Shown piece after piece: positions 4,930 to 35,111 of a stretch of DNA of 64,000 nucleotides (the first letter of the stretch is position 1; every line of letters begins with the position of its first letter). Below the pieces are notes generated by a model, which saw only the letters and a program-made list of their open reading frames with translations, was not told the origin of the DNA and did not search any database. Source of the DNA: Xylanimonas protaetiae (GTDB taxonomy: Bacteria > Actinomycetota > Actinomycetes > Actinomycetales > Cellulomonadaceae); the NCBI RefSeq assembly GCF_004135385.1, contig NZ_CP035493.1, forward strand, positions 3,229,440-3,293,439. The letters are read 5' to 3'. A program made the translations under genes and the position numbers.

Positions 4930-7824
4930 ATGCGCACGACCAGCGCCGTCAGCCACAGCGCTATCCGTCCGGTGTCGATCGTCGTCGAGCCGTCGGCGTT
5001 CGAGGGCGTCACGGTCGTCGCCGCGAAGGTGGCCGCCGACCTCGAGCGCATCACCGGCACGGCCCCCGCCGTCGTCGACGCCCCGCGCGCCGCCGCGACG
5101 CCGACCGTGGTGCTCGCCGCGACGCTCGGCCGCTCCCCGCTGGTCGACGAGCTCGTCGCCGCGGGCCGCCTCGACGTCGCCGACGTCGCAGGCAGGCGCG
5201 AGGTCTACGCCGTGACGCTCGTCGAGTCGCCCTTCGCCGACGCCCCCGACGTCGAGCGCGCGCTCGTCGTCGTCGGCTCCGACAAGCGCGGGACGATCTA
5301 CGGGCTCTTCTCCCTCTCCGAGCAGGCGGGCGTGTCGCCGCTGCACTACTGGGGCGACGTGGCGCCGCAGGCGCGCGAGCTCGTCGAGCTGGGCGAGACG
5401 ACGGCCACGCGCGAGCCGTCCGTGAAGTTCCGCGGCCTGTTCATCAACGACGAGTGGCCGTGCTTCGGCACCTGGACGTCTCAGCACTTCGGCGGGTTCA
5501 CGGCCGACATGTACGACCACGTCTTCGAGCTGATCCTGCGCCTCAAGGGCAACTACCTGTGGCCGGCGATGTGGACGTCGAGCTTCGCGCTCGACGGGCC
5601 CGGGTCGCTCAACGAGGAGCTCGCCGACATGTACGGCATCGTCGTCGGCGCCTCGCACCACGAGCCGTGCCTGCGCGCGTCGGAGGAGTGGGACATCGTC
5701 CGCGGCCCGGACACGCCCTACGGGAACGAGTGGAACTACCTCACCAACCGCGAGGGCCTGCTGCGCTACTGGGAGGACGGCCTCAAGCGCTCGGGGCGCT
5801 ACGAGAAGATCGTCATGCTCGGCATGCGCGGCGAGCGCGACTCCGAGCTGCTCGGCGAGGACGCCGGCCTCCAGGCGAACATCGACCTGCTCAAGGACGC
5901 GATCACCGAGCAGCGCCGGCTCGTGGCCCAGCACGCCCCGGGCGCCACCGAGATGCTCGCCCTCTACAAGGAGGTCGAGGAGTACTACTACGGCTCCGAC
6001 ACCGTGCCCGGCCTGCGCGGCTGGGAGGGGCTCGACGGCGTGACGCTCATGTTCTGCGAGGACAACTTCGGCTTCATGCGCTCGCTGCCTGCGACCGACG
6101 CCGAGCGTCGCAGCGCCGGCATGTACTACCACTTCGACTACCACGGCGGCCCCGTGAGCTACGAGTGGATGCCGTCGACGTCGTTCGAGCGCACGCACGA
6201 CCAGATGTCGCTCGCGTTCGACCACGGCGTGCGCGACGTGTGGGTGGTCAACCTGGGCGACCTCAAGTTCAACGAGGTGCCCTTCGCGTTCTTCATGGCC
6301 ATGGCGTACGACATGGACGCGTACGGCAACGGCACCCGGACGGCCGCGGCCGACTTCACGGCGTCCTGGCTGGACGCGACCTTCCCTGCCGCGGCGCCGG
6401 ACGTGCGCGCCACGATCGGCGAGGTGCTGCACGGCTACCTGCGTCTCAACGCGATGCGCCGCCCCGAGGCCCTCAACGAGCACGTCTACGCGGCCGCCCA
6501 CTTCCAGGAGGCGGACCGCATGCTCGCGCGCGCCGACGCCGTCGACGCCGCGAACGCCGCGGTGGTCGCCGCGCTCGAGGCGCTCGACGACGACGGCCGC
6601 ACCCTGCTGGCCTACACCTCCCTCGTGGGGCTCCCGGCGCGCGCCTCGCTCAACCTGCTGCGCCTGCACGTCAACGCCGCGAAGAACGCCCACTACGCCC
6701 GCCAGGCCAAGCCCGTCGCCAACGCCTACGCCGGCCGGGTCACCGAGGCCGTCGCGACCGACCGCGCGATCGGCGACGAGATCCGCGAGCTCGCCGGCGG
6801 CAAGTGGACGGGCCACGAGCAGGAGGCGCACGTCGGCTTCACCGGCTGGAACGAGGACGGGTCGCGCTACCCGGTCCGCCACGTCGTCGAGCCCATGGGG
6901 CACGAGCCGCGGCTCTCCGTCTCCCGTGCCGACGCCGTCCCGACGTACCACCGCCAGTACGGCCGCCCCATGGAGGTCGTCGTCGACGACTTCTGCGTCG
7001 CCGGCGAGACGGCGGTCGCGATCGAGATCGCGAACGACGGCGTCGGGTCGCTCGCGTGGACGCTCGAGGGCGGCGAGGACGTCCCCTGGCTCGGCGTGTC
7101 CGCGCGCTCCGGCTCCGCGGTCGCCCAGGACGTCGTCGTGCTCACGTGCGACCGCGCGCTGCTATCCGCGACGACGCAGACCGTGCGCCTGCTGGTCCGC
7201 GTCGGCGCGGCCCAGCCGCACCAGGTCTCGACCGTCGCGGTCGTCGTCTCCGGGCGCGCCGTCGACACGGCCGGCCTGCCGGCGGGCACGTTCCTGCCCG
7301 GCCGTGACGGCGTCGTCGCGATCGACGCCCAGCACGCGGCCGCGTCGACGTCCGTCGACGGCGCCGCGTTCGTCGAGCTGCCGCGCGGCGGCCGCGACGG
7401 CTCGGCGATGCGCGTCCTGCCGACGACGGCGCCCGCGTTCGAGGTCGGCGCGCCCGCGCCGACGCTGACGTACCGGTTCCTGGCCGAGACGACCGGCGAG
7501 TACGACGTCGACGTGTGGCAGGTGCCCACGGGCGTCGTCGTGCGCGGCACGTCGCTGCGGTACACGCTGGGCGGCGCGGTGGTCGAGGCGGTCGCCGCCG
7601 ACGTCAACGCCGGCGAGCCGGGCGACGCCCGCTGGGCGCGCCCCGTGGTCGAGAACATCCGCGTGACCACCTCGCGGACGCGCTTCGAGGCCGGGGTCGC
7701 CGAGCTGACGCTGGGCGCGCTGGACCCGAACCTCGTCGTCGAGCGGATCGTCGTGCGGCCCGCAGGCGTCGTGCTGCCGGCGTCGGCGCTGGGGCCGCGC
7801 GAGAGCGCCCGCGTCCAGGCCTGA
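4930..7824 (+). CDS. Glycoside hydrolase family 115 (xylan alpha-1,2-glucuronidase)
   Basis: 964 residues, matching GH115 enzymes, which remove (4-O-methyl)glucuronic acid from xylan. Recognisable family blocks: YGLFSLSEQAGVSPLHYWGD near 120, KFRGLFINDEWPCFG near 165, RLKGNYLWPAMWTSSF near 205, GMRGERDSELLGED near 298, MFCEDNFGFMRSLP near 375, YHFDYHGGPVSYEWM near 400 and VWVVNLGDLKFNEVPFAFF near 440. The last third is a beta-rich Gylcosyl_hydro_115 C-terminal region. No signal peptide is seen, suggesting intracellular action on imported oligosaccharides. The ATG at 4930 has a good AAGGAG ribosome-binding site 9 nt upstream. Confidence 0.92.
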   Translation: MRTTSAVSHSAIRPVSIVVEPSAFEGVTVVAAKVAADLERITGTAPAVVDAPRAAATPTVVLAATLGRSPLVDELVAAGRLDVADVAGRREVYAVTLVESPFADAPDVERALVVVGSDKRGTIYGLFSLSEQAGVSPLHYWGDVAPQARELVELGETTATREPSVKFRGLFINDEWPCFGTWTSQHFGGFTADMYDHVFELILRLKGNYLWPAMWTSSFALDGPGSLNEELADMYGIVVGASHHEPCLRASEEWDIVRGPDTPYGNEWNYLTNREGLLRYWEDGLKRSGRYEKIVMLGMRGERDSELLGEDAGLQANIDLLKDAITEQRRLVAQHAPGATEMLALYKEVEEYYYGSDTVPGLRGWEGLDGVTLMFCEDNFGFMRSLPATDAERRSAGMYYHFDYHGGPVSYEWMPSTSFERTHDQMSLAFDHGVRDVWVVNLGDLKFNEVPFAFFMAMAYDMDAYGNGTRTAAADFTASWLDATFPAAAPDVRATIGEVLHGYLRLNAMRRPEALNEHVYAAAHFQEADRMLARADAVDAANAAVVAALEALDDDGRTLLAYTSLVGLPARASLNLLRLHVNAAKNAHYARQAKPVANAYAGRVTEAVATDRAIGDEIRELAGGKWTGHEQEAHVGFTGWNEDGSRYPVRHVVEPMGHEPRLSVSRADAVPTYHRQYGRPMEVVVDDFCVAGETAVAIEIANDGVGSLAWTLEGGEDVPWLGVSARSGSAVAQDVVVLTCDRALLSATTQTVRLLVRVGAAQPHQVSTVAVVVSGRAVDTAGLPAGTFLPGRDGVVAIDAQHAAASTSVDGAAFVELPRGGRDGSAMRVLPTTAPAFEVGAPAPTLTYRFLAETTGEYDVDVWQVPTGVVVRGTSLRYTLGGAVVEAVAADVNAGEPGDARWARPVVENIRVTTSRTRFEAGVAELTLGALDPNLVVERIVVRPAGVVLPASALGPRESARVQA

Positions 7825-10138: not shown

Positions 10139-10765
10139 ATGCGCATCGCGGGGCAGCCGTCCTGGAGGTTGTCGGTCAGCGACAGCCAGTCGCTCGAGGT
10201 CGCCCTGTACGTGCGGGACGCGGCCGGGATCGTGGTCGCGGGCGACGACGTCCCGCCGCCGCTCACCGCCCCGCCGCCCCGCTCGGACGTCCTCGACGGC
10301 GCGGACCCGGCCCCGGTGGCGGCGCAGTGGCTCGCGTGGTGGCGGACGCTGGTCGCGCTGGACCTTGAGCTGCAGAAGGCGCCCACGCTGGACGGCGCGG
10401 CGTGGCAGGCGTGGGCCAGGGAGCACGCAGCGCGCCGGGACGCGGCCGGAACCCCGACCGACGACTTCGCGGGCCTCGCCCACGCGCCCGCCCTGCGCCA
10501 GGCGTGCGTCGCGCTGGCCCACGACGCGTACGGCGCCGCCCGCCGGAACCCGGAGCTGGACCGGGCGCCGTGGGCGCAGACGAAGCAGGTCGTCGACGAC
10601 GTCGCGCAGGCGCACGGGGTGGACCCGGACGTGCTGTCCGGGGTCGTGATCCAGGTGCCGACGACGGGCGGCTGGTGGCGCGTGGTCGAGCCGGGGGCCG
10701 TCCTCGCGTCGACCGCCGCGCCGTACGACGCCGTGGTGCGGGCCGCGTTCGAGTCAGCCCTCTGA
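10139..10765 (+). CDS. Hypothetical actinobacterial protein
   Basis: 208 residues, no membrane segment or signal. It opens MRIAGQPSWRLSVSDSQSLEVAL and contains a Trp-rich segment (WLAWWRTLVALDLEL near residue 62) and a C-terminal GGWWRVVEPGAVLAS. I do not recognise a family. Codon use is typical of the window and the frame is uninterrupted. Its end overlaps the convergent AI-2E-family gene by 12 bp. Confidence 0.6.
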   Translation: MRIAGQPSWRLSVSDSQSLEVALYVRDAAGIVVAGDDVPPPLTAPPPRSDVLDGADPAPVAAQWLAWWRTLVALDLELQKAPTLDGAAWQAWAREHAARRDAAGTPTDDFAGLAHAPALRQACVALAHDAYGAARRNPELDRAPWAQTKQVVDDVAQAHGVDPDVLSGVVIQVPTTGGWWRVVEPGAVLASTAAPYDAVVRAAFESAL

Positions 10766-11887
10766 GCGCGGCGCCCCGTCGCGCGCCGGGGCCTGGTCCG
10801 GCGGGTCCGACGGCGCGTCGGCCCCGCTCGGCCCCGGTGCGTCGTCGTGGTCGGGGCGGCGTCTCAGGTGCCCGACGACGTCGCGCAGCATGACCGTCAC
10901 GGGCGCGGAGAGCATGGCCCCGAGGAGGCCGGCGAGCACGGTGCCGACGACCGTCGAGCCCAGGTTGACGATCGGGTGCAGGCGCAGCCGGTCCGAGGAC
11001 AGCTTGGTGAGCACGAGCGTCTGGACGACGTTCTGCATCACGAGGATGACGCCGAGCAGGACGAGCGCCTCCGTGGGCCCGCGCGACCCCAGCGCGATGA
11101 GCACCGCGAACGCGCCCGAGAAGATCGCGCCGAGGAACGGCACGTACGACGTCACGAACGTCACGAGCGCGATCGAGACCGCGAGCGGCACCCCGAGCAC
11201 GACGGCGGCGACCGCGATGAGGGCCGCCGCCAGCAGGTTCGACACCGACATCGCGCCGAAGTACCGCCGCAGGGTCGTGGTGGCCTGGTCGACGACGTCG
11301 CGCCCCGACGTCGCGCCGAGGGACGCGTACCGGGCGACGAACGCCTCGATCCGGGGCCAGTCGGCCATGACGTAGAAGAGGAAGAAGACGGCGACGAACG
11401 TCCCGACGAGGAACGCCGCCGCGCTGGAGAACACGCTGCCGAACAGGCTCGCGAGGCCGCCGCTCAGGGCGGACGTCGCACTCCCCAGGTCGATGCCGGA
11501 CACGTCCAGCGACGTGCCGGCGAGCTCCTCCTGGAGGGTCGCGAGCCCGCGGGTCAGCCGGTCGGCGATCTCCGTGGACTGCTCGACGACGCCGACCACC
11601 GTCACCCACACGGCGACGCCCAGCACGGCCGCCAGCACCACCAGCACGGCCGCCGCCCCCAGGCCGCGCCGCAGCCCGGCCCGCTCCAGGCGGTCGACGG
11701 CGGGCTGCAGCAGGATGCCGAGCACCGCCGCGACGACGAGCGGCACCACCACGCCGCTGAGCGTGGAGGCGGCGGTGTAGACGACCAGGCCGGCGGCCGC
11801 GATGCCGACGACGGCCCACGCGATCCGGCCGAGGCGGAGCACGCGGTCGCCCAGAGGCCTGGCGGTCTCGGGAACGTGGTCGGGCAC
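10754..11887 (-). CDS. AI-2E family transporter (PerM/TqsA-like)
   Basis: 377 residues with about eight membrane helices in the usual layout: two near the N-terminus (IAWAVVGIAAAGLVVYTAAS, VVVPLVVAAVLGILLQP), a soluble loop, then a helical C-half with VTSYVPFLGAIFSGAFAVLIAL and GVILVMQNVVQTLVL, the family signature region. Members export autoinducer-2 or act in ion/pH homeostasis; the substrate is not predictable. The GTG at 11887 was chosen for its GAGGAG ribosome-binding site; the Met pair at 11914-11917 has no such site. A charged, disordered tail ends the protein. Confidence 0.85.
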   Translation of the reverse strand: MPDHVPETARPLGDRVLRLGRIAWAVVGIAAAGLVVYTAASTLSGVVVPLVVAAVLGILLQPAVDRLERAGLRRGLGAAAVLVVLAAVLGVAVWVTVVGVVEQSTEIADRLTRGLATLQEELAGTSLDVSGIDLGSATSALSGGLASLFGSVFSSAAAFLVGTFVAVFFLFYVMADWPRIEAFVARYASLGATSGRDVVDQATTTLRRYFGAMSVSNLLAAALIAVAAVVLGVPLAVSIALVTFVTSYVPFLGAIFSGAFAVLIALGSRGPTEALVLLGVILVMQNVVQTLVLTKLSSDRLRLHPIVNLGSTVVGTVLAGLLGAMLSAPVTVMLRDVVGHLRRRPDHDDAPGPSGADAPSDPPDQAPARDGAPRSEG

Positions 11888-26016: not shown

Positions 26017-26037
26017 GCGCCGCGGCGCCACGCTCAC
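26013..26037. terminator. Hairpin spanning two convergent stop codons
   Basis: GTGAGCG (26013-26019) pairs with CGCTCAC (26031-26037) across CCGCGGCGCCA, which can itself fold. It covers the stops of the DUF2264 gene and of the convergent CHAT gene, so it may end both transcripts. Confidence 0.5.
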
Positions 26038-28337
26038 GCGAACTGCACGTTGCTCGGCCCGAAGATCGCGTACATCAGCGGGAAGTAGTTGCCCTGTCTC
26101 ACCCCCGCGTCGATGACCGTCCGCAGGGCGTCCCGCAGCGACCTCCGCTCGGAGTAGATCGCCGTGAGCAGAGCCTGCCCGACGCCGTCGGCCATGGCAG
26201 CGTGGACGCTCCAGTCGGTGCCGATGAAGGCCTGAGCCCGCCACGTCCGGGTGAAGAAGTCGACGAACGGCGCCCCGAAGATCGCGTCCGCCTGGCCGGA
26301 GGCGCAGGCGTTGAGGATGACGACCGGGTTGCTGTCGCGCGGCCTGCCCCACCACGTGCCCAGGTCCTCGAGCGTGACCCGGGATGGGTCGTCCTCCGCG
26401 ACGCCGAAGCCGAGCACGCTGTCCTCCGTGCCCGTCCCGAGCGCGGTGACGGGGTTCGCGGGCACCGCGTGGCAGAACAGGTAGAGCAGGTCGCTCGCGT
26501 CGCCGCTCTCGGCCCACGTGCGCAGGTCGTCCGGCATCGTCGCGACGTCCTGCACCGTGGACGACGACGACGCGCGGCCCCGGAGCACACCGACGAAGTC
26601 CCGCTGCTGGTCGCCGCGCGGCACGTGCTCCCCGACGACGGGCTTGAGCGCGCAGGCGGCGCCGCGATGCACGCTGCGACCGTGGGCCTGGGGCACGACG
26701 TCGCGGTAGATGTCGAAGCGCACGCCCCAGAAGCCCTGTGGGTCGACGTCGTCGGGGCCAGGGTCGTCCGGCAGCTCCTTGTCGTACAGCAGCCCCCACG
26801 GCAGCGGATAGGTGCCGGCGATGACCTGGAGCTGGCGTGGCGGCGAGCTCGCCGGGGTCTCGCGGACCACGTCGGCCAGCTCGGTGAGCTCGACCGGCGG
26901 AGCCCCCTTCGCCCAGGTCGCGAACACGCTCCGGTGGAGCCGCGACCCGATCCTCGCGAGCTCGACGGCCGACCGTCCGGCGTCGTCGCCCAGGAGCGCG
27001 AGGTCCGCACCCGCGGGGAAGCGCTGGGACAGGGCCCGCAGCCCCTGGTAGGCGTAGTGGGCGCCACCGGCGACGAAGGTCGTCAGGTCGCGCTCCCACT
27101 CCACCCGGTGCTGCAGCACGTTGCCCACGTGCAGCGACGCCGTCCGGTCGGTCAGCTCCAGGCGCAGGTCCGCACCGGTCCGGTCGGTGATCGACGTCAT
27201 CGGGATCACGACCGGTGCCTCGGTGCCGGGCGCGGCGCCCGGACCGGACCCGGCCCCGGCTCCGGCCCCGGCCCCGGCTCCGGCCCCGGCCCCGACCCCG
27301 ACGACGTCGAGGTCGACGACCTGTTCCGCGACCGACCCGCCGTCGACCAGGAGCGCCACGGTGATCCGGGCCGGTCCGGCCTCGCCCGCCGTGAACGAGA
27401 CCCGGTACGGCGGCGTCCCGTCCTCGGCGCAGTCGACCGGCGCGGAGCCGACGACGGCGTGCGTCGCACCGTCGGCGTCGGTGAACCGTCCGTTGCGCGC
27501 CCGCAGCACGAAGGCGACCTTCCGCCCGAGCACCGCCGTGGCGTCGAGGGCCTGGCTGAGCGCCGCCTCCCGAACGGCCCGTTCGAGCGCCGTCTCGAAC
27601 GGGTACGTCCCGCCGGCCGAGACCAGGTGCGGCCGGTTCCGCAGGATCCCGGCGTCCTCCGGGAACCGGACGTTCCAGAACAGCTCCCCCGACGGCGCCC
27701 CGCCCGCCTCGTCGAGCGTCGCCTCCAGCACCCGCTCGACGTCGGGCGCCGCCTCGGTCGCGGCGGCACCGCCCACCACGCTCGCCATCGCCTGCTCGAC
27801 GAGCTCGTTGAGCGTCGTCGCCGAGGTGGCCGACCCGGCACCCGTCTGGATCGCGTCGAGCAGCACGTGCGGCGTCGAGCCGTACCGGGCGAGCACCGGC
27901 GTGAGCAGGTCCGACATCCTGGCCAGGGGCTTCCTGGCGGGCCGCAGCACGTGCTCGACGACGGCCTCGATCCCCTCGGCGGCGGTCGTGGCGTAGGTGT
28001 CGGCGCCCGCGAGGATCGCCCGCAAAGGGGTCCACGAGCGCCGCCGCGCGCCCTGGACGACGATCAGGCCCGTCGCCGAACGGGCCTGGGCGATCAGCTC
28101 CTCGAGGTCGTCGGGCTCGTCGTCGTCCTGGAGCAGGAGCACGTCGTAGCGGCGCGCTCCGATCCGGGTGTACGCCTCGGCGCGCGTGCCGACGACGTCG
28201 ACGGTGACGTTGGCGAGCGAGCCCAGGTCCACGATCCCGCCGGTCTCCAGGCCGGGCGTGGTGCCGGCACGGTCGGTGACGGACAGGATCGAGAACGCCT
28301 CGTCCCCGAGGGCGCTCTGCAGGGCGTCGAGATCCAT
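26034..28337 (-). CDS. CHAT-domain (caspase-like) protease with receiver-like N-terminus
   Basis: 767 residues. Residues about 14-132 resemble a receiver fold (RYDVLLLQDDDEPDDLEELI, TGLIVVQGARRRSW, ILAGADTYATTAAEGIEAVV). A middle beta-rich region follows, then an Ala-Gly repeat linker (about 350-372). The C-terminal 300 residues are a CHAT domain: LPWGLLYDKELPDDP near 520, the catalytic His in LLYLFCHAVPAN (H623) and the catalytic Cys in VVILNACASGQAD (C678), with AQAFIGTDWSVHAAMAD after it. CHAT proteases act in prokaryotic immunity and cell-death modules. It is the second gene of a pair, 19 bp after the 246-residue protein, which is the obvious substrate candidate. Confidence 0.85.
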   Translation of the reverse strand: MDLDALQSALGDEAFSILSVTDRAGTTPGLETGGIVDLGSLANVTVDVVGTRAEAYTRIGARRYDVLLLQDDDEPDDLEELIAQARSATGLIVVQGARRRSWTPLRAILAGADTYATTAAEGIEAVVEHVLRPARKPLARMSDLLTPVLARYGSTPHVLLDAIQTGAGSATSATTLNELVEQAMASVVGGAAATEAAPDVERVLEATLDEAGGAPSGELFWNVRFPEDAGILRNRPHLVSAGGTYPFETALERAVREAALSQALDATAVLGRKVAFVLRARNGRFTDADGATHAVVGSAPVDCAEDGTPPYRVSFTAGEAGPARITVALLVDGGSVAEQVVDLDVVGVGAGAGAGAGAGAGAGSGPGAAPGTEAPVVIPMTSITDRTGADLRLELTDRTASLHVGNVLQHRVEWERDLTTFVAGGAHYAYQGLRALSQRFPAGADLALLGDDAGRSAVELARIGSRLHRSVFATWAKGAPPVELTELADVVRETPASSPPRQLQVIAGTYPLPWGLLYDKELPDDPGPDDVDPQGFWGVRFDIYRDVVPQAHGRSVHRGAACALKPVVGEHVPRGDQQRDFVGVLRGRASSSSTVQDVATMPDDLRTWAESGDASDLLYLFCHAVPANPVTALGTGTEDSVLGFGVAEDDPSRVTLEDLGTWWGRPRDSNPVVILNACASGQADAIFGAPFVDFFTRTWRAQAFIGTDWSVHAAMADGVGQALLTAIYSERRSLRDALRTVIDAGVRQGNYFPLMYAIFGPSNVQFA

Positions 28338-28356
28338 CGCGGGCTCCGGCGGCAGG

Positions 28357-29097
28357 TCACTCGAACGGGTCGTCGGTGAACACGTCGGCCAGGTCCTCGG
28401 GCCCGAGGATCTCCGTGGTGAGGCGCCCGAACAGTCCCCTTCTCACCTTGACGCAGTGGAACAGCGGCGTGCCCTTCGCGCAGAGCGACGTGTACCCGCT
28501 GCCTCTCCAGTTCGAGGCGCTCCACCCCAGCCTCGCGTCCGCGATGGCGACGTCCTTGAGGGGCTCGGGCAGGTCGGTGTTCGCCTTCAGGTCGACGGAC
28601 GACCCGCTCTCGCGGCTGACGACGAGGGTCGCGGACTCGGCCTCGATCACCTCGACGACCAGGATCCACCTCTCGTTCCACCCGCCGGTCCGGGCGAGCT
28701 CCTTGATCCGCCGCTGCACCGGCGGGATCTCGCGGACGCGGGTGCGCGTCGCCCCCTCGTAGGCGAGGGCGAACCCGCTCTCGCGCGTGAAGGTCAACGA
28801 CGCCGTCGCCTGCACGCTCACGCCGGGCGCGGCGGGTATGGCGGCCTTGGCACCGGCCCCGACGTCGGTGACGCGCCTGCAGCCGTCGTAGTACGTCTCC
28901 GACCCGGGGACCGGCTCGCTCTCGACCGGCACGGCGTCCCGCCACCCCGGCCAGTCGAGCACGTTCCCGAGCTTGACCAGCACGCCCTCGTCGTTCTGGT
29001 CGAAGTAGTCCCCCACGTGCACCGGGACGATCTGGGGGTACGCGCCGAGGAAGCCCGTGGCTCCCCGGACCAGCCTGCTGAAGTCCCTCGCCGACAT
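28357..29097 (-). CDS. CHAT-linked protein, possibly gasdermin-like pore former
   Basis: 246 residues, no signal peptide, mixed alpha/beta. Pattern by eye: amphipathic N-terminal helix then IVPVHVGDYF; VLVKLGNVLDW near 45; a Gly/Ala-rich strand pair (VGAGAKAAIPAAPGVSVQA and ASLTFTRESGFALAYEGA); a helix with PPVQRRIKELAR; then a long strand ERWILVVEVIEAESATLVVS. The order of strand, LGxVL, hairpin-forming strands, helix and VVxxI-type strand recalls gasdermin N-domains, and bacterial gasdermins of about this size sit beside proteases. This is a structural guess, not a homology call. A ribosome-binding site GGGAG precedes the ATG. The C-terminal 20-30 residues (DLADVFTDDPFE) could be the cleavable tail. 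Confidence 0.55.
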   Translation of the reverse strand: MSARDFSRLVRGATGFLGAYPQIVPVHVGDYFDQNDEGVLVKLGNVLDWPGWRDAVPVESEPVPGSETYYDGCRRVTDVGAGAKAAIPAAPGVSVQATASLTFTRESGFALAYEGATRTRVREIPPVQRRIKELARTGGWNERWILVVEVIEAESATLVVSRESGSSVDLKANTDLPEPLKDVAIADARLGWSASNWRGSGYTSLCAKGTPLFHCVKVRRGLFGRLTTEILGPEDLADVFTDDPFE

Positions 29098-29361: not shown

Positions 29362-32300
29362 TCAGTCGCTCCCGGCCTCCGCTCGGCTCGCGACGAGCTC
29401 GGCGTCCCGGAAGACGCGGTCGGCCGCCTTCCTGCCCAGGTCGAGCAGGGCGACGATCTCCGCCTTGCCCATGCTGGTGGTCGCTCGGAGCTCCGCGGCC
29501 CGGCGCGCGAGCGCGAGCCGCTCGGGCTGCCCCTCGGGCGACTCGTAGAACCGCGCGTCGGAGAGCAAGTCGCTGACGGTGGACGGCGACTTGCCGAGCA
29601 CCGCAGCGATGTCATCGAGCGTGCGCCCGTCGCGCTGGAGCGCGAGGGCCTCGGCCGCCTCGACGGCGCGAGGTCGGCGGGCCCGCGCAGGCATTGTTGC
29701 CGCTCGGACGATCGGTTCCGTCGGGGGCACCGGGTCGGTGGCGCCGTCGAAGGCCGTGGGCTGCGGGGGACGCGTTCGCGTGGGTGGCGGCACCACGGGT
29801 GGGTCGCCGGGGACCGCTGCGAGGAAGTCGGCGACCGAGATCACCGGCTTGCCGTACTCGGCTGCCTTGCGTGCCTTGCCGGACTGGGTGCCGAGCTCGG
29901 CGACGACGAGGAGGTCGCACCGCGTCTTGGTGACGTTGTTCACCGGAGCGAGTCCGATGCGTTCGGCGTGCTCGTTCATCTCCGCGCGTGAGAGCGGGGA
30001 ACCGTCGGGGCCGATGGCGTCGCCCGTGAAGCAGACGCGCGCACCGCGATACACCGCCGATGCGGCATCGGCACCGCCCGCCCACGCGAGCTCGGCGCCG
30101 AGGTCCGTCCCGAGCATCGGCATGAGCAGGCTCAGCCGCTCGACGAGGGTGGGCGACAGCCCCGCGGACTTCTGCGCCACGGACGTGAGCCGGGCCGTGA
30201 CGACCTGCCGGATCATCTCGTTGCCCGCCGCCGACTCCGGTGGAGCGGGGACGCCGTGGAGGATGGCGTCGCTGACGGTGCGGCTCGCGCTGATGAGCGA
30301 CGCCAGCGCCGGCCCGGCGTCGGGCACGGTCACCGTGTCCCGCGTCAGGACGTACGACGCCTGGTCCTCAGCGTTCGCCGGTTCGAAGGCAGCCCCGCCC
30401 TCCCCGCCGTCACGGCGGAAGATGGCCAGGGCGGCCCGCGCGCGGCGCAGCGCCGACGGCGCGGCGAGCTCCGCCGCCTCGTCACCCTTGGCGTGGCTGG
30501 GGTCGACGACAACACCGGGCGGGAACGGACGGACGACCCCGAGCCGCTTGAGCTCCCAGTCGACGTAGCCGAGCGTGCGGTCGACGTCGACGCCCACCGC
30601 CACGGCGCCGTCGAGGAGCCTGGCCAGGACCGACCACGCCTGGGCGAGGTTCGGCGCCAGGGTGATGTCGTCGACCCCGAGGTCGAAGGCCTCCCGCGCT
30701 CCGGTCAGGTCCCGCTCGGGGTTGACGAGCGTCGAGAACTCGGTCCCGTCGTCGAAGGCGAGTGCGATCTCGACCGGCCTCGGCTTCGAGCGGACGTCGT
30801 CGGCTCCGACGAGCAGGGCAGCGACCGCCACGTGGCCGCGCGCCTGCGCCCCCGAGGCCGCCGCGAGGAAGCGGACGACCCGCCGGTCGGTCTGGAGGTG
30901 GCGGGCCTCCACCGGGCGATGGAGCACCAGACCCTGCATCGAGGTGCACCGGCTCAGCGCGACGTACGCCTGCCCGAACGCGAAGGTGCCCCCGGACAGG
31001 TCGACGACCAGCCGGTCAAGCGTGAGTCCCTGGCACTTGTGGATCGTGACGGCCCAGGCGAGCTTGAACGGCAGCTGCGTGTACCCGCCGACCACCTCGC
31101 GCGACATCGCACCGTCGACGAAACGCGGCTCCGTCACCTCCCACGTGTGCGCGGTGACCTCGACGACGTCGCCGCCGTTGAGACGCACGACGACGGCGTC
31201 CCCGTCGACCTTCTCGACGCGCCCGATCGTGCCGTTGACCCAGCGGTCGGCCGTGTCGTTGTTGAGCAGCATGATCTGCGCCCCGACCTTGAACACCACC
31301 ACGTCCTCGACGGGGCTGTCGAAGTTCGAGGTGTCACCCCACGTCGTCGCCGCGCGGTGGAACGCTTCTCCAGGCAGGCGCTCGAGTGCGGCGCGGTTGC
31401 GGGACGTCACGATGGAGTTCGTCGGGGCGACCGTCAGCCAGAACTCGTCGGCCGGCGGCTCGAACGCGCCGTCGGCGCGGGTGTTGAGGTCGGCCCGCAT
31501 CTCGTCGGCGAGCAGCCCCTCGCGGACCGCGTTGAGCAGGCCGGTCAGGCGATCGTCGCCGAGCTGGCGGAACACCTTGGTGAGCGCCACCGTCGGGAAC
31601 CGATCACGCGAGAAGGCGCGCGCGGAGAAGAAGTACTCCGTCTCGTACCGCGACGCGAGCCACGCCTTCTCCCGCTCAGGCACGACGGGCGGCAGCTGGA
31701 ACAGGTCGCCCACGAGCACGACCTGCACGCCTCCGAACGGCTTGCCCGGGTGCGGCCCATAGCGGCGCAGCGCGACCTCGATCTGGTCGAGCAGGTCCGC
31801 CCGCACCATCGACGCCTCGTCGATGATCAGGGTGTCCATCCCCCGGATCTCGCGCGCGAACCTCCTCGGCCGGTAGTCGCCCGTCTCGACGTCGTCGAGC
31901 GTGGTGCTCGCCCCGAACGAGAACAGGCGGTGGAGGGTCAGGCCGTCGACGTTCAGCGCGGCGATCCCCGTGGGGGCCGCGACGACGACGCGACGCCGGG
32001 TCGACTCCATGAAGTGCCGGATCAGCGTCGACTTGCCCGTCCCCGCCTTCCCTGTCAGGAACATCGAACCGCCCGAGGCGAGGATCCCCAGCGCTGCCTC
32101 GAACTCCTCGGTCAGCTCGATGCGCTTCGCCGGGGACACTGACACCACCGCGTCGTCTGCCGTCGGCGGAGGCGAAGCCTGCGCGACGACGTCGATGACG
32201 TTGCCAGGCAGAAGCTCGACGACGTCGCGCACGGGTCCGTCATATCCATGGCGCCCGAAGCCCACGACGACGACCGCACGTCCGGCATCATCGATGCCGA

Positions 32301-32772
32301 CGTCACCCACCCGCGGCCGCGTCGCCGGTCGCCACGCGAACGCGTACCCCCGCCGGTCGTCCTGCGGCGCAAGATCGACGACCCACGCGGGGAGGTCGGC
32401 TGCGGGGACCGGGTACGACGACGTCGCGGCGAGGTACTCCACCTGGACGACGACAGGCTCGGAGACGCTCGGTGCCGAGCCGACGCGTGTGCGCGCGGCT
32501 TCGACGGTGCGAAGGAGTGCCTCTGCGGCTCCGGTCTGCTTCCTGCGGAAGTGAAGCTGCACCGCGGGACCGTCCCGCTCGATGGTGATCACGCCGTTGA
32601 CCAGGCGCGTCGCCGCCTTGAAGCGCACCTGGCCGATCCGGTCGAGCGGGATCACGACCTCACGTGCACCGAGCGCACCACGACCGAGCACGTTGGTCGC
32701 GCTGACCGCCACCGAGCCCTCGTCGACGGACACCCGCACGCAGTACAGGTCGAAGATGCTGGACTCCGTCAA
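29362..32772 (-). CDS. PIF1-type helicase fused to degenerate exonuclease, BRCT and HTH segments
   Basis: 1136 residues from a TTG start with an AGGGAG ribosome-binding site. Residues 1-200 are an uncharacterised beta-rich N-region. The superfamily 1 PIF1/RecD-like core runs from about 225 to 640: Walker A FLTGKAGTGKST (K247), Walker B IIDEASMV (D318-E319), GVQVVLVGDLFQLPPV, LTKVFRQ, and motif VI region AWAVTIHKCQGLTLD...YVALSRC. Residues about 670-760 look like a DEDD exonuclease (FSTLVNPERDLTGAREAFDL) lacking the acidic residues. A BRCT domain lies at about 908-985 (GARVCFTGDAIG, NNVTKTRCDLLVVAELG). The C-terminal 100 residues hold an HTH (TLDDIAAVLGKSPSTVSDLL). Probable DNA repair or defence helicase. 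Confidence 0.85.
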   Translation of the reverse strand: MTESSIFDLYCVRVSVDEGSVAVSATNVLGRGALGAREVVIPLDRIGQVRFKAATRLVNGVITIERDGPAVQLHFRRKQTGAAEALLRTVEAARTRVGSAPSVSEPVVVQVEYLAATSSYPVPAADLPAWVVDLAPQDDRRGYAFAWRPATRPRVGDVGIDDAGRAVVVVGFGRHGYDGPVRDVVELLPGNVIDVVAQASPPPTADDAVVSVSPAKRIELTEEFEAALGILASGGSMFLTGKAGTGKSTLIRHFMESTRRRVVVAAPTGIAALNVDGLTLHRLFSFGASTTLDDVETGDYRPRRFAREIRGMDTLIIDEASMVRADLLDQIEVALRRYGPHPGKPFGGVQVVLVGDLFQLPPVVPEREKAWLASRYETEYFFSARAFSRDRFPTVALTKVFRQLGDDRLTGLLNAVREGLLADEMRADLNTRADGAFEPPADEFWLTVAPTNSIVTSRNRAALERLPGEAFHRAATTWGDTSNFDSPVEDVVVFKVGAQIMLLNNDTADRWVNGTIGRVEKVDGDAVVVRLNGGDVVEVTAHTWEVTEPRFVDGAMSREVVGGYTQLPFKLAWAVTIHKCQGLTLDRLVVDLSGGTFAFGQAYVALSRCTSMQGLVLHRPVEARHLQTDRRVVRFLAAASGAQARGHVAVAALLVGADDVRSKPRPVEIALAFDDGTEFSTLVNPERDLTGAREAFDLGVDDITLAPNLAQAWSVLARLLDGAVAVGVDVDRTLGYVDWELKRLGVVRPFPPGVVVDPSHAKGDEAAELAAPSALRRARAALAIFRRDGGEGGAAFEPANAEDQASYVLTRDTVTVPDAGPALASLISASRTVSDAILHGVPAPPESAAGNEMIRQVVTARLTSVAQKSAGLSPTLVERLSLLMPMLGTDLGAELAWAGGADAASAVYRGARVCFTGDAIGPDGSPLSRAEMNEHAERIGLAPVNNVTKTRCDLLVVAELGTQSGKARKAAEYGKPVISVADFLAAVPGDPPVVPPPTRTRPPQPTAFDGATDPVPPTEPIVRAATMPARARRPRAVEAAEALALQRDGRTLDDIAAVLGKSPSTVSDLLSDARFYESPEGQPERLALARRAAELRATTSMGKAEIVALLDLGRKAADRVFRDAELVASRAEAGSD

Positions 32773-33335
32773 CGCTCGTCTCCCTTGCTGTGCAGTCTGG
32801 CCGACGCCGAACGCGCGCCCTCGCCAACGTCGATCTGGCCGATGACGACAGCCGTGACCCGGGCCGCGTGGCGCCCCCAGATCAGGTCCTCGAACAGGTC
32901 GCCCATTCCCCGCCCTGTCCACATGGTCCGTCGACGGTCCGCGCCGACGAACCCCCTGCATCACCGGGATGATCCGGTCGGCGGCGTCGAGCTGGCGCGG
33001 GCGCGCCTCGAAGCCGAGTTGCCTGAGCACGTCGGCGGGACGAAACCTACCCGGCCCACGGCGCTCGGAGCCCGCAGAGGCGGATTGCGTCGCCCCGTAC
33101 GGCGACCGCCACCATGTGCCAACCGCCGCGCCGTCGCCGACCTGACCCCGTACACGGAAGTGCCCGCTGCTCAACGACGGGACCGCTCCAGCATCGCCGA
33201 CGACGGCACGTTCGTCCTGCCTGACCTGCACGGCTCCAGCTCGGACCCGTGCTCGCCCGCGGGCCCGTATCAAGAGCGCGCCCCCCACGCTCCCTCGGAC
33301 CAGAGAAAGTCCTCCGAGCCACACCGAGGTGCGCC
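32773..33335. other. 563-bp gap between divergent helicase and subtilase genes; no gene seen
   Basis: Only shadow frames with Arg/Pro-rich translations cross this stretch. It must carry the two divergent promoters. I see no clear sigma-70 pair, palindrome or RNA gene; a CCTCGG/CCGAGG-type inverted repeat near 33294-33329 (CCCTCGG...CCGAG) sits just before the subtilase start and might be regulatory. Confidence 0.4.
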
Positions 33336-35111
33336 ATGCCGGTCAAGGTCCCTCCCGCACCGTCGACGCAAGACGGCGCCACGTTGCCCGCCGCGTTCCG
33401 GGGCGAGGCCGAGCTCATCGTCGTGTCGACGCCGGCCGCCGGGCTGCGCGCCACCCTCGAGGGCCTGCAGTCGGTGCGGCGGGCACCGGTGGCCCCGCTG
33501 ACCACGCTGCTCGGGGAGTCGGCGGCGGAGCTGCGCCCGGTGTTCGGCCTCGAGGAGGTGGCCGCCGCCAAGGCGCGCAGGGCCACCGAGGTCAGCGGCA
33601 TCGAGGTGCCCGACCTGTCGCTGTTCTACCGCGTCCAGCTCCCGGACGGGACCCCGGCCGAGGCGCGGGACAGGGTGTTCGCCAGGCTGCTCGACCGGCT
33701 CGCCGGCGAGAAGGCGATCGACGGCGTGTACGTCAAGCCGCCGACCATCCCGCCCCTGTGGCGCCTCGACTACGCCGTCGACGTCGACAACCTCAAGCTG
33801 TTCGACGTCTTCGAGAGGTTCACCTCACGGCAGGGGTACCTCGACCCCGCCCCCGGCGGCGTCGACGCCCGCTGGGCATGGACGCAGACGGGCGGCCGCG
33901 GCGACGGCGTGCAGATCATCGACATCGAGGGCAACTGGCGGTTCACTCACGAGGACCTCACTGCCAACCAGGGCGGCGTCGTCGCCGGCACCCGGCTCGA
34001 CGACGTGATCGACTGGCGCAACCACGGCACCGCGGTGCTCGGGGAGATCAGCGGCGACCAGAACCTGTTCGGCATCACCGGCATCGCCCCGAACGCGAAC
34101 ATCCGGACGATCTCACACGGCGGGATCGGGTCGTCGTCGGCCATCCGACAGTCCGCCGACCTGCTCTCACCTGGTGACCTCATCCTCCTTGAGATGCACC
34201 GCCCCGGGCCGCTGCACGACTTCGCGTCGCGCAACGACCAGGACGGCTACATCGCCGTCGAGTGGTGGGAGGACGACTTCGCGGCAATCCGATACGCGGT
34301 CGCGCGGGGCATCGTCGTCGTCGAAGCCGCCGGGAACGGGGCACAGGACCTGGACGGCAGGCTGTACGAGACGCGACCCTCGGGCTTCCCGTCCGGCTGG
34401 ACCAACCCGTTCCGGCGGGCGAACCGGGACTCGGGCGCGATCGTCGTGGGTGCGGGTGCGCCACCGGTCGGGACGCACGGGTTCACCTGGGGAAACGACC
34501 GCTCCCGGTTGGGGTTCTCCAACTGGGGTGCGCTCGTCGACGCCCAGGGCTGGGGCGGTGGCGTCACGACCACCGGGTACGGCGACCTGCAGGGCGGCAC
34601 AGACGAGGACCGGTGGTACACCGACGACTTCGGAGGGACGTCCAGCGCCTCCCCGATCGTCACGGGCGCGCTCGCCGCGACACAGGGCGTCCTCAAGGCG
34701 CGCGGCCGGATCCCGCTGTCCCCGGCACGGGCGCGTGCGTTGCTGCGGTCCACCGGGTCGGCGCAGCAGGACGAGCCGAGCCGCCCCGCCACCCAGAGGA
34801 TCGGCAACCTTCCCGACCTCCGCTCGCTCGTCCCGGAGGCGCTGCGGACCGTCAACCACACGGGCACCCAGTTCACCGGCTCGCTCGCGGCCGGCCAGAC
34901 GGCCCGCTGGTTCACCTTCGGCTGGCCGGCCCACTGGCACGTCTACTGGACGGTGGTCCCCACCATCCCGCGCAACGGCGTCCGGCAGCTGCGGTGGAAG
35001 GTCCAGGTGGAGCGCGCCTCGGACGCGACGATCACCTACTGGATCGAGATCACGAACCTCACGTCCGCGTCCATCGACGTCGAAGCCCGCTTCGCGGTGC
35101 TCGGCCAGTAG
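33336..35111 (+). CDS. S8 subtilase without signal peptide, with FGWP-type C-terminal domain
   Basis: 591 residues. The N-terminal 150 form a propeptide-like alpha/beta region. The catalytic domain has Asp196 (VQIIDIEGNW), His230 (WRNHGTAVLGEISG), the oxyanion Asn334 (VEAAGNGAQD) and Ser436 (GGTSSASPIVTGALA), a complete subtilase set. After it comes an 85-residue beta-rich domain (TGTQFTGSLAAGQTARWFTF, GWP, VERASDATITYWIEITN). No N-terminal signal is seen, so an intracellular protease is inferred. It starts a three-gene plus-strand run with two small genes downstream. Confidence 0.88.
   Translation: MPVKVPPAPSTQDGATLPAAFRGEAELIVVSTPAAGLRATLEGLQSVRRAPVAPLTTLLGESAAELRPVFGLEEVAAAKARRATEVSGIEVPDLSLFYRVQLPDGTPAEARDRVFARLLDRLAGEKAIDGVYVKPPTIPPLWRLDYAVDVDNLKLFDVFERFTSRQGYLDPAPGGVDARWAWTQTGGRGDGVQIIDIEGNWRFTHEDLTANQGGVVAGTRLDDVIDWRNHGTAVLGEISGDQNLFGITGIAPNANIRTISHGGIGSSSAIRQSADLLSPGDLILLEMHRPGPLHDFASRNDQDGYIAVEWWEDDFAAIRYAVARGIVVVEAAGNGAQDLDGRLYETRPSGFPSGWTNPFRRANRDSGAIVVGAGAPPVGTHGFTWGNDRSRLGFSNWGALVDAQGWGGGVTTTGYGDLQGGTDEDRWYTDDFGGTSSASPIVTGALAATQGVLKARGRIPLSPARARALLRSTGSAQQDEPSRPATQRIGNLPDLRSLVPEALRTVNHTGTQFTGSLAAGQTARWFTFGWPAHWHVYWTVVPTIPRNGVRQLRWKVQVERASDATITYWIEITNLTSASIDVEARFAVLGQ

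Follow-up and report, generated by a model that had tools for sequence, protein, structure and literature searches.

A CHAT-like protease gene recurrently paired with a family of putative, very divergent gasdermins: a candidate protease-gated cell-suicide module

We analyzed a 64,000-nucleotide stretch of the Xylanimonas protaetiae genome (contig NZ_CP035493.1, positions 3,229,440 to 3,293,439; the whole stretch is called the window below) and focused on two adjacent minus-strand genes, which encode proteins of 246 and 767 amino acids (aa). We consider it likely that this pair is a protease-gated cell-suicide module and that the 246-aa protein, judging from sequence comparisons, belongs, as a highly divergent member, to the gasdermin superfamily. 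We directly observed the two genes, a pairing that recurs in other genomes, a His/Cys dyad in the larger, CHAT-like protein, and a statistically significant sequence similarity between the 15-member family of the smaller protein and one gasdermin (PDB entry 7N50). A first-pass annotation had proposed an abortive-infection pair of a CHAT protease and a gasdermin-like pore former, with a receiver-like domain as the trigger sensor; the recurrent protease pairing and the 7N50 match uphold its central idea, and the sensor role of the receiver domain is unproven.

The two open reading frames (ORFs) form a minus-strand unit with 19 bp between the genes, exactly as annotated at first pass. Both ORFs have a strong third-position GC bias, as in real genes, and a GGAG/GGGAG motif lies 6 bases 5' of each start. 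Neither protein matched any Pfam, PADLOC or NCBIfam entry at E values up to 1. By eye, the 246-aa protein has no obvious N-terminal hydrophobic run, in agreement with the earlier statement that it lacks a signal. The unit is composed as follows:

28357 to 29097, minus strand: gene of the 246-aa gasdermin-like candidate effector (from the ORF, the 15-member family, the profile match to 7N50 and the hhalign controls)
28338 to 28356, minus strand: 19-bp intergenic gap, in which a GGAG motif precedes the protease ATG by 6 bases (from reading of the sequence)
26034 to 28337, minus strand: gene of the 767-aa CHAT-like (caspase-like) putative protease, second of the unit (from the ORF, tblastn and a local CHAT profile)

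We then looked for relatives of the 246-aa protein. In its own genome, the gene matched only itself, and no match was found in the ten other genomes of the genus that were searched, four of which are less than 80% complete. Among plasmid records, tblastn detected a relative in Gemmatirosa and another in Mesorhizobium sp. AR10, and iteration added members from Embleya and Streptomyces avidinii. A five-member profile then matched 3/394 genomes of the class (the own genome and two new ones), and a seven-member profile matched 10/297 genomes of the taxonomic family to which one of these belongs (one known, eight new and one, G1361, spurious), a count corrected to 9/297 after removal of G1361. The final alignment (A4) holds 15 members, from four plasmid records and eleven genomes of one class, the own genome included. 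They are 244 to 281 residues long, with the start codons of several chosen by us, and the others share 18 to 26% identity with the window protein. Only two positions, G29 and V147, never vary; W20, D30, F103, W140 and P211 come close to this. We take the family of the 297 genomes to be Streptomycetaceae, and the phylum to be Actinomycetota, since at the DNA level the stretch around one member (G952) was matched best by Streptomyces records (81-84% over 11-23%); the best matches of the G1146 stretch and of the window were also from Streptomyces, with lower coverage.

Several candidates were rejected. The Flavobacteriales match (L002) was a chance one, running out of an outer-membrane-type reading frame. 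Three hits of 20 to 22 bits were dropped before counting: G335, which is antisense to a transporter-like gene; G085, which gave no match with the profile; and G588, on score alone. G1361 (23 bits), whose frame reads like noncoding sequence, was likewise dropped. A phage search and scans of viral contigs revealed nothing.

Evaluation of the genetic neighborhood, from annotation and our own ORF calls, revealed that a CHAT gene is the direct neighbor of the family gene in 12/15 loci (the window, L010, L011, L015, L016, L027, and L029 to L034) and lies one gene away in another (L028). Its position and strand vary, the gene being upstream (L010), downstream or divergent (L011), and the pairing persists. 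In one scan, seven of nine neighbor proteins passed the Pfam CHAT cutoff. In Mesorhizobium (L006), a caspase C14 gene is located one gene away and a CHAT protein 2.5 kb off on the other side; the minus-strand gene at 5382 to 6953 of this locus encodes a caspase C14 domain (Pfam, 4e-13) fused to FGE/SUMF1 and is annotated merely as SUMF1/EgtB/PvdO. In Gemmatirosa (L007), the upstream gene (6396 to 7706, plus strand, 30 bp away) resembles, by eye, a TIR domain joined to a transglutaminase-like cysteine protease, the latter part with a weak Pfam match (DUF553, E = 0.021). Homologs consistently devoid of a protease, the finding that the first-pass annotation had named as contrary to its proposal, were thus not what we found: 13/15 have a CHAT gene immediately beside the family gene or at a distance of one gene, and of the other two, one has a nearby caspase gene and one a possible cysteine protease gene.

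That the two genes are unrelated neighbors, brought together by chance or by shared ancestry of a gene block, is extremely improbable. Such a view would suit the lack of any match in the ten congeners (1/11 genomes, the own one only), but the pairing recurs with members 18 to 26% identical to the window protein and in all three arrangements of the CHAT gene described above. Moreover, a CHAT domain is encoded no more than 5 kb from the family gene in all ten genomes other than the own one among the eleven, genomes which hold 1 to 6 CHAT matches each (36 in total, one of them under the cutoff); the naive chance product for this proximity is about 3e-25, ignoring relatedness.

The similarity to gasdermins emerged from profile searches against 177,635 PDB sequences. 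Entry 7N50, which we take to be a bacterial gasdermin, was the top match of the five-member profile (E = 0.08) and the sole match of the seven-member profile (E = 0.0017, 21.2 bits, positions 23 to 170 on 25 to 183). The fifteen-member profile again ranked it first (E = 0.0021), and the runner-up, at 0.12, was an unrelated enzyme. The match to 7N50 extends colinearly over about 150 residues. As a yardstick, the 7N50 fragment alone reached 7N52, also named Gasdermin, at an E value of only 0.77. Alignment of the 15-member profile with the 7N50 fragment by hhalign gave a score of 34.4 over 151 columns, with probabilities of 67% and 79% in two setups; the controls reached at most 11.9 (206 decoy segments taken from other proteins predicted in the retrieved loci) and 11.7 (150 shuffles), and the reverse gave -0.2. 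The NCBIfam prok_gasdermin model aligned weakly and colinearly with the Mesorhizobium member (66 to 172 on 56 to 174 of 203, E = 0.14). The profile searches thus independently picked a gasdermin for the protein that had been called gasdermin-like, and homology of the family to gasdermins appears likely from these comparisons, although not proven.

Several results weigh against the gasdermin and protease assignments. The prok_gasdermin model (NF051890, cutoff of 100 bits), the check proposed with the first-pass annotation, matched only 1/15 members, at 11.9 bits, and not the window protein; in the same NCBIfam scan, one member scored better with a nucleoside-diphosphate kinase model (E = 0.014), and one reached 0.37 with an inclusion membrane protein. 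The three-member profiles A1 and A6 retrieved no gasdermin from the PDB, and addition of 7N50 to the profile reached no further one. A Pfam scan of the 15 members detected no gasdermin, its three matches being weak and to unrelated families (E = 0.044 to 0.23), and a single-sequence AlphaFold model of the 246-aa protein had a mean predicted local distance difference test score of 32.7. A Cys within the first ten residues is present in 2/15 members and absent from the window protein. On the protease side, Gemmatirosa has neither CHAT nor caspase next door, the 767-aa protein does not reach the Pfam CHAT (PF12770) cutoff, and the L027 partner (10216 to 11493, minus strand) has a Tyr at the His column, with the Cys kept, which suggests a degenerate or altered protease. 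A plasmid search with the 7N50 fragment found nothing. Pfam Gasdermin gave no match in the own genome, and NF051890 gave none in the 396 genomes scanned from the phylum to which the window belongs; since the controls were silent in both searches, these absences are unproven.

We judge it unlikely that the 246-aa protein is another kind of protease-activated effector, such as a pro-nuclease, and that the gasdermin match is accidental. The match is limited to one structure, and Canu loci do pair caspase-family proteases with pro-nucleases (PMC12799240; this source and the others cited below, except PMC9079055, are cited from excerpts). Nevertheless, the invariant G29 and V147 and the nearly invariant W20, D30, F103, W140 and P211 are unlike a usual catalytic set, the hhalign score with 7N50 is far above those of the decoys, and the weak Pfam matches (nucleoside-diphosphate kinase, C-terminal part of calcineurin-like phosphoesterase, and core protein P7, in one member each) are not to nucleases.

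Features of the C terminus are consistent with a divergent gasdermin. Past a mostly basic segment starting at P211 (Pro in 14/15 members), every member has a tail of 21 to 58 residues, whose net charge is negative in 14/15 members. The window protein has a tail of 21 residues with a charge of -7:

28360 to 28422, minus strand: acidic C-terminal tail, residues 226 to 246 (from 15 residues after P211), candidate inhibitory, cleavable peptide

Bacterial gasdermins (bGSDMs) are cut about 20 residues from their C terminus by the neighboring protease (PMC9612521, PMC10989679, PMC9079055), and an N-terminal palmitoylated cysteine has been described for the majority of them (PMC9612521).

We then analyzed the 767-aa protein. 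It gave no Pfam match at E values up to 1, hence no Pfam CHAT, and the single Pfam CHAT match of the own genome is elsewhere. Its CHAT-like identity rests on two comparisons: residues 616 to 759 matched an annotated CHAT protein of Rhodococcus opacus in tblastn (32.5%, E = 5e-8), and a CHAT profile derived from seven relatives, with which the window protein scores 13.8 bits, places H623 (within LFCHAVP) and C678 (within LNACASG) in its His and Cys columns. Both dyad residues are kept in 13/14 of the CHAT-like proteins examined. The earlier assignment of a downstream CHAT protease is therefore borne out by the tblastn match and the dyad alignment and falls below the Pfam threshold. We also noted, on an R. 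opacus plasmid, a short CHAT gene of 579 bp (L048:6950-7528) between insertion sequence elements, apparently a remnant. The following features were located in the protease gene:

26469 to 26471, minus strand: codon of the predicted catalytic His623 (from the dyad alignment)
26304 to 26306, minus strand: codon of the predicted catalytic Cys678 (from the dyad alignment)
27879 to 28337, minus strand: N-terminal domain (residues 1 to 153), possibly receiver-like, putative sensor (8svz, E = 0.22)
27222 to 27296, minus strand: Ala-Gly linker (about residues 348 to 372) joining the putative sensor half to the protease half (from reading of the sequence)

The first-pass description of this locus was partly confirmed. 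The gene pair, the His623/Cys678 dyad, with both residues present and aligned to the CHAT columns, and the Ala-Gly hinge, a repeat that starts at residue 349, were all recovered, and the receiver-like N-domain fared less well. Indeed, a phmmer search of residues 1 to 153 against the PDB, up to E = 10, retrieved a single match, the response regulator 8svz (E = 0.22), and a Pfam search up to E = 10 detected no Response_reg, with DUF1120 (0.15) as the sole match; these residues may be a degenerate receiver. The relatives carry other accessory parts (TPR, NACHT/AAA, Clp_N and caspase-FGE, many of them below the Pfam cutoffs). Of these, the TPR, NACHT/AAA or Clp_N parts, for most of which the match does not reach the cutoff, occur in CHAT-bearing proteins or in the genes that follow. 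Long proteins with weak NACHT/AAA matches are encoded after the CHAT gene in four loci (L016:12365-17623, L029:12319-17763, L031:2257-7866 and L032:2252-7906), with weak TPR matches as well in L016, L029 and L032; these four proteins are candidates for NLR-like sensors.

We propose that the 246-aa protein is a pore-forming domain kept inactive by its short acidic C-terminal tail and that the N-terminal half of the 767-aa protein responds to a trigger, in all likelihood infection by a phage. Once triggered, the CHAT protein would cut the acidic tail off the 246-aa protein; the freed domain would assemble into membrane pores, and these would kill or arrest the cell before the phage spreads, probably as abortive infection. 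We thus infer the gasdermin fold, the tail cleavage, the pore formation and the phage trigger. Cleavage of the tail by the CHAT protein is expected by analogy with bGSDMs and with a fungal gasdermin, which is activated by a TPR-CHAT protease (PMC12881547). An alternative, which we consider quite unlikely, is that the 246-aa protein, instead of being the executed substrate of the CHAT protease, serves this enzyme as an adaptor, inhibitor or specificity subunit. Recurrent pairing would suit any obligate partner, but the family is similar to gasdermin and is also found near a caspase-FGE protein, a partner type named for known gasdermins (PMC9612521).

The proposed cell-suicide module has counterparts among described systems. 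CHAT is counted among the caspase-like proteases of bGSDM operons (PMC9612521, Fig. 2 legend), whose named partners include caspases, CHAT, FGE-type lectins and NACHT (PMC9612521). The first-pass annotation called a receiver-CHAT plus gasdermin arrangement unusual; because that source counts CHAT among the partners, CHAT with a gasdermin is not unusual as such, and the arrangement is known in kind. Like bGSDMs, the family members are about 250 residues long, have a short C-terminal tail and no large C-terminal domain, are encoded beside a caspase-like protease gene and match 7N50; unlike bGSDMs, they are unrecognized by NF051890 or Pfam, mostly lack the Cys near the N terminus, and occur in a phylum where NF051890 gave 0/396, in a search with silent controls. 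The two-gene gasdermin and CHAT arrangement also resembles that of fungal gasdermins (the Podospora two-gene cluster and TPR-CHAT partners), whereas no fungal gasdermin was among the entries listed when the PDB was searched with our profiles. Canu caspase-nuclease systems share the neighboring pro-effector activated by a caspase-family protease (PMC12799240), but their effector is a nuclease and no nuclease family matched the members here. A CHAT protease also serves in bacterial defense in Craspase (TPR-CHAT, Csx29; type III-E CRISPR) (PMC9729208), a complex which, unlike the present pair, is CRISPR guided; no CRISPR search was made at the window locus.

What is new is the effector family, which the models that we applied did not recognize, and the presence of this family in Actinomycetota, the phylum as deduced above. 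In the open literature that we searched, there was no account of a gasdermin with CHAT, or of a bGSDM, in actinobacteria, and an earlier description elsewhere is possible. Among the matches listed for gasdermin and Streptomyces, there was only mammalian or human-cell work. In excerpts of its main text, a survey of conflict systems in multicellular prokaryotes (PMC7159879) mentions neither CHAT nor gasdermin, and excerpts of PMC13236601 and PMC10907252 describe no such family.

Around the pair, a large PIF1-like helicase protein is encoded directly upstream on the same strand (29362 to 33324, minus strand), and a DUF2264 gene lies on the opposite strand on the other side. Beyond the helicase, about 4 kb from the pair, there is a subtilase gene (33249 to 35111, plus strand; Peptidase_S8, E = 2e-12), whose product may be another protease belonging to this island. 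Subtilase-type proteases are the commonest partners of fungal gasdermins (PMC10989679).

On balance, we favor the view that the family is a separate branch of the gasdermin superfamily that recurs among multicellular actinomycetes and is carried on plasmids, and in which one conserved pore former would be combined with CHAT proteases whose sensor halves were repeatedly swapped (receiver-like, TPR, NACHT/AAA, Clp_N, caspase-lectin and TIR-transglutaminase). If so, gasdermin-type suicide would extend well beyond the proteins recognized by current models, and Streptomyces-like actinomycetes would possess a candidate pyroptosis-like executioner, with its protease partner, that current gasdermin models miss. 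The loci would offer a natural series of different sensors for asking what triggers CHAT proteases, and the family would suggest that gasdermins can dispense with the N-terminal lipid-bearing cysteine.

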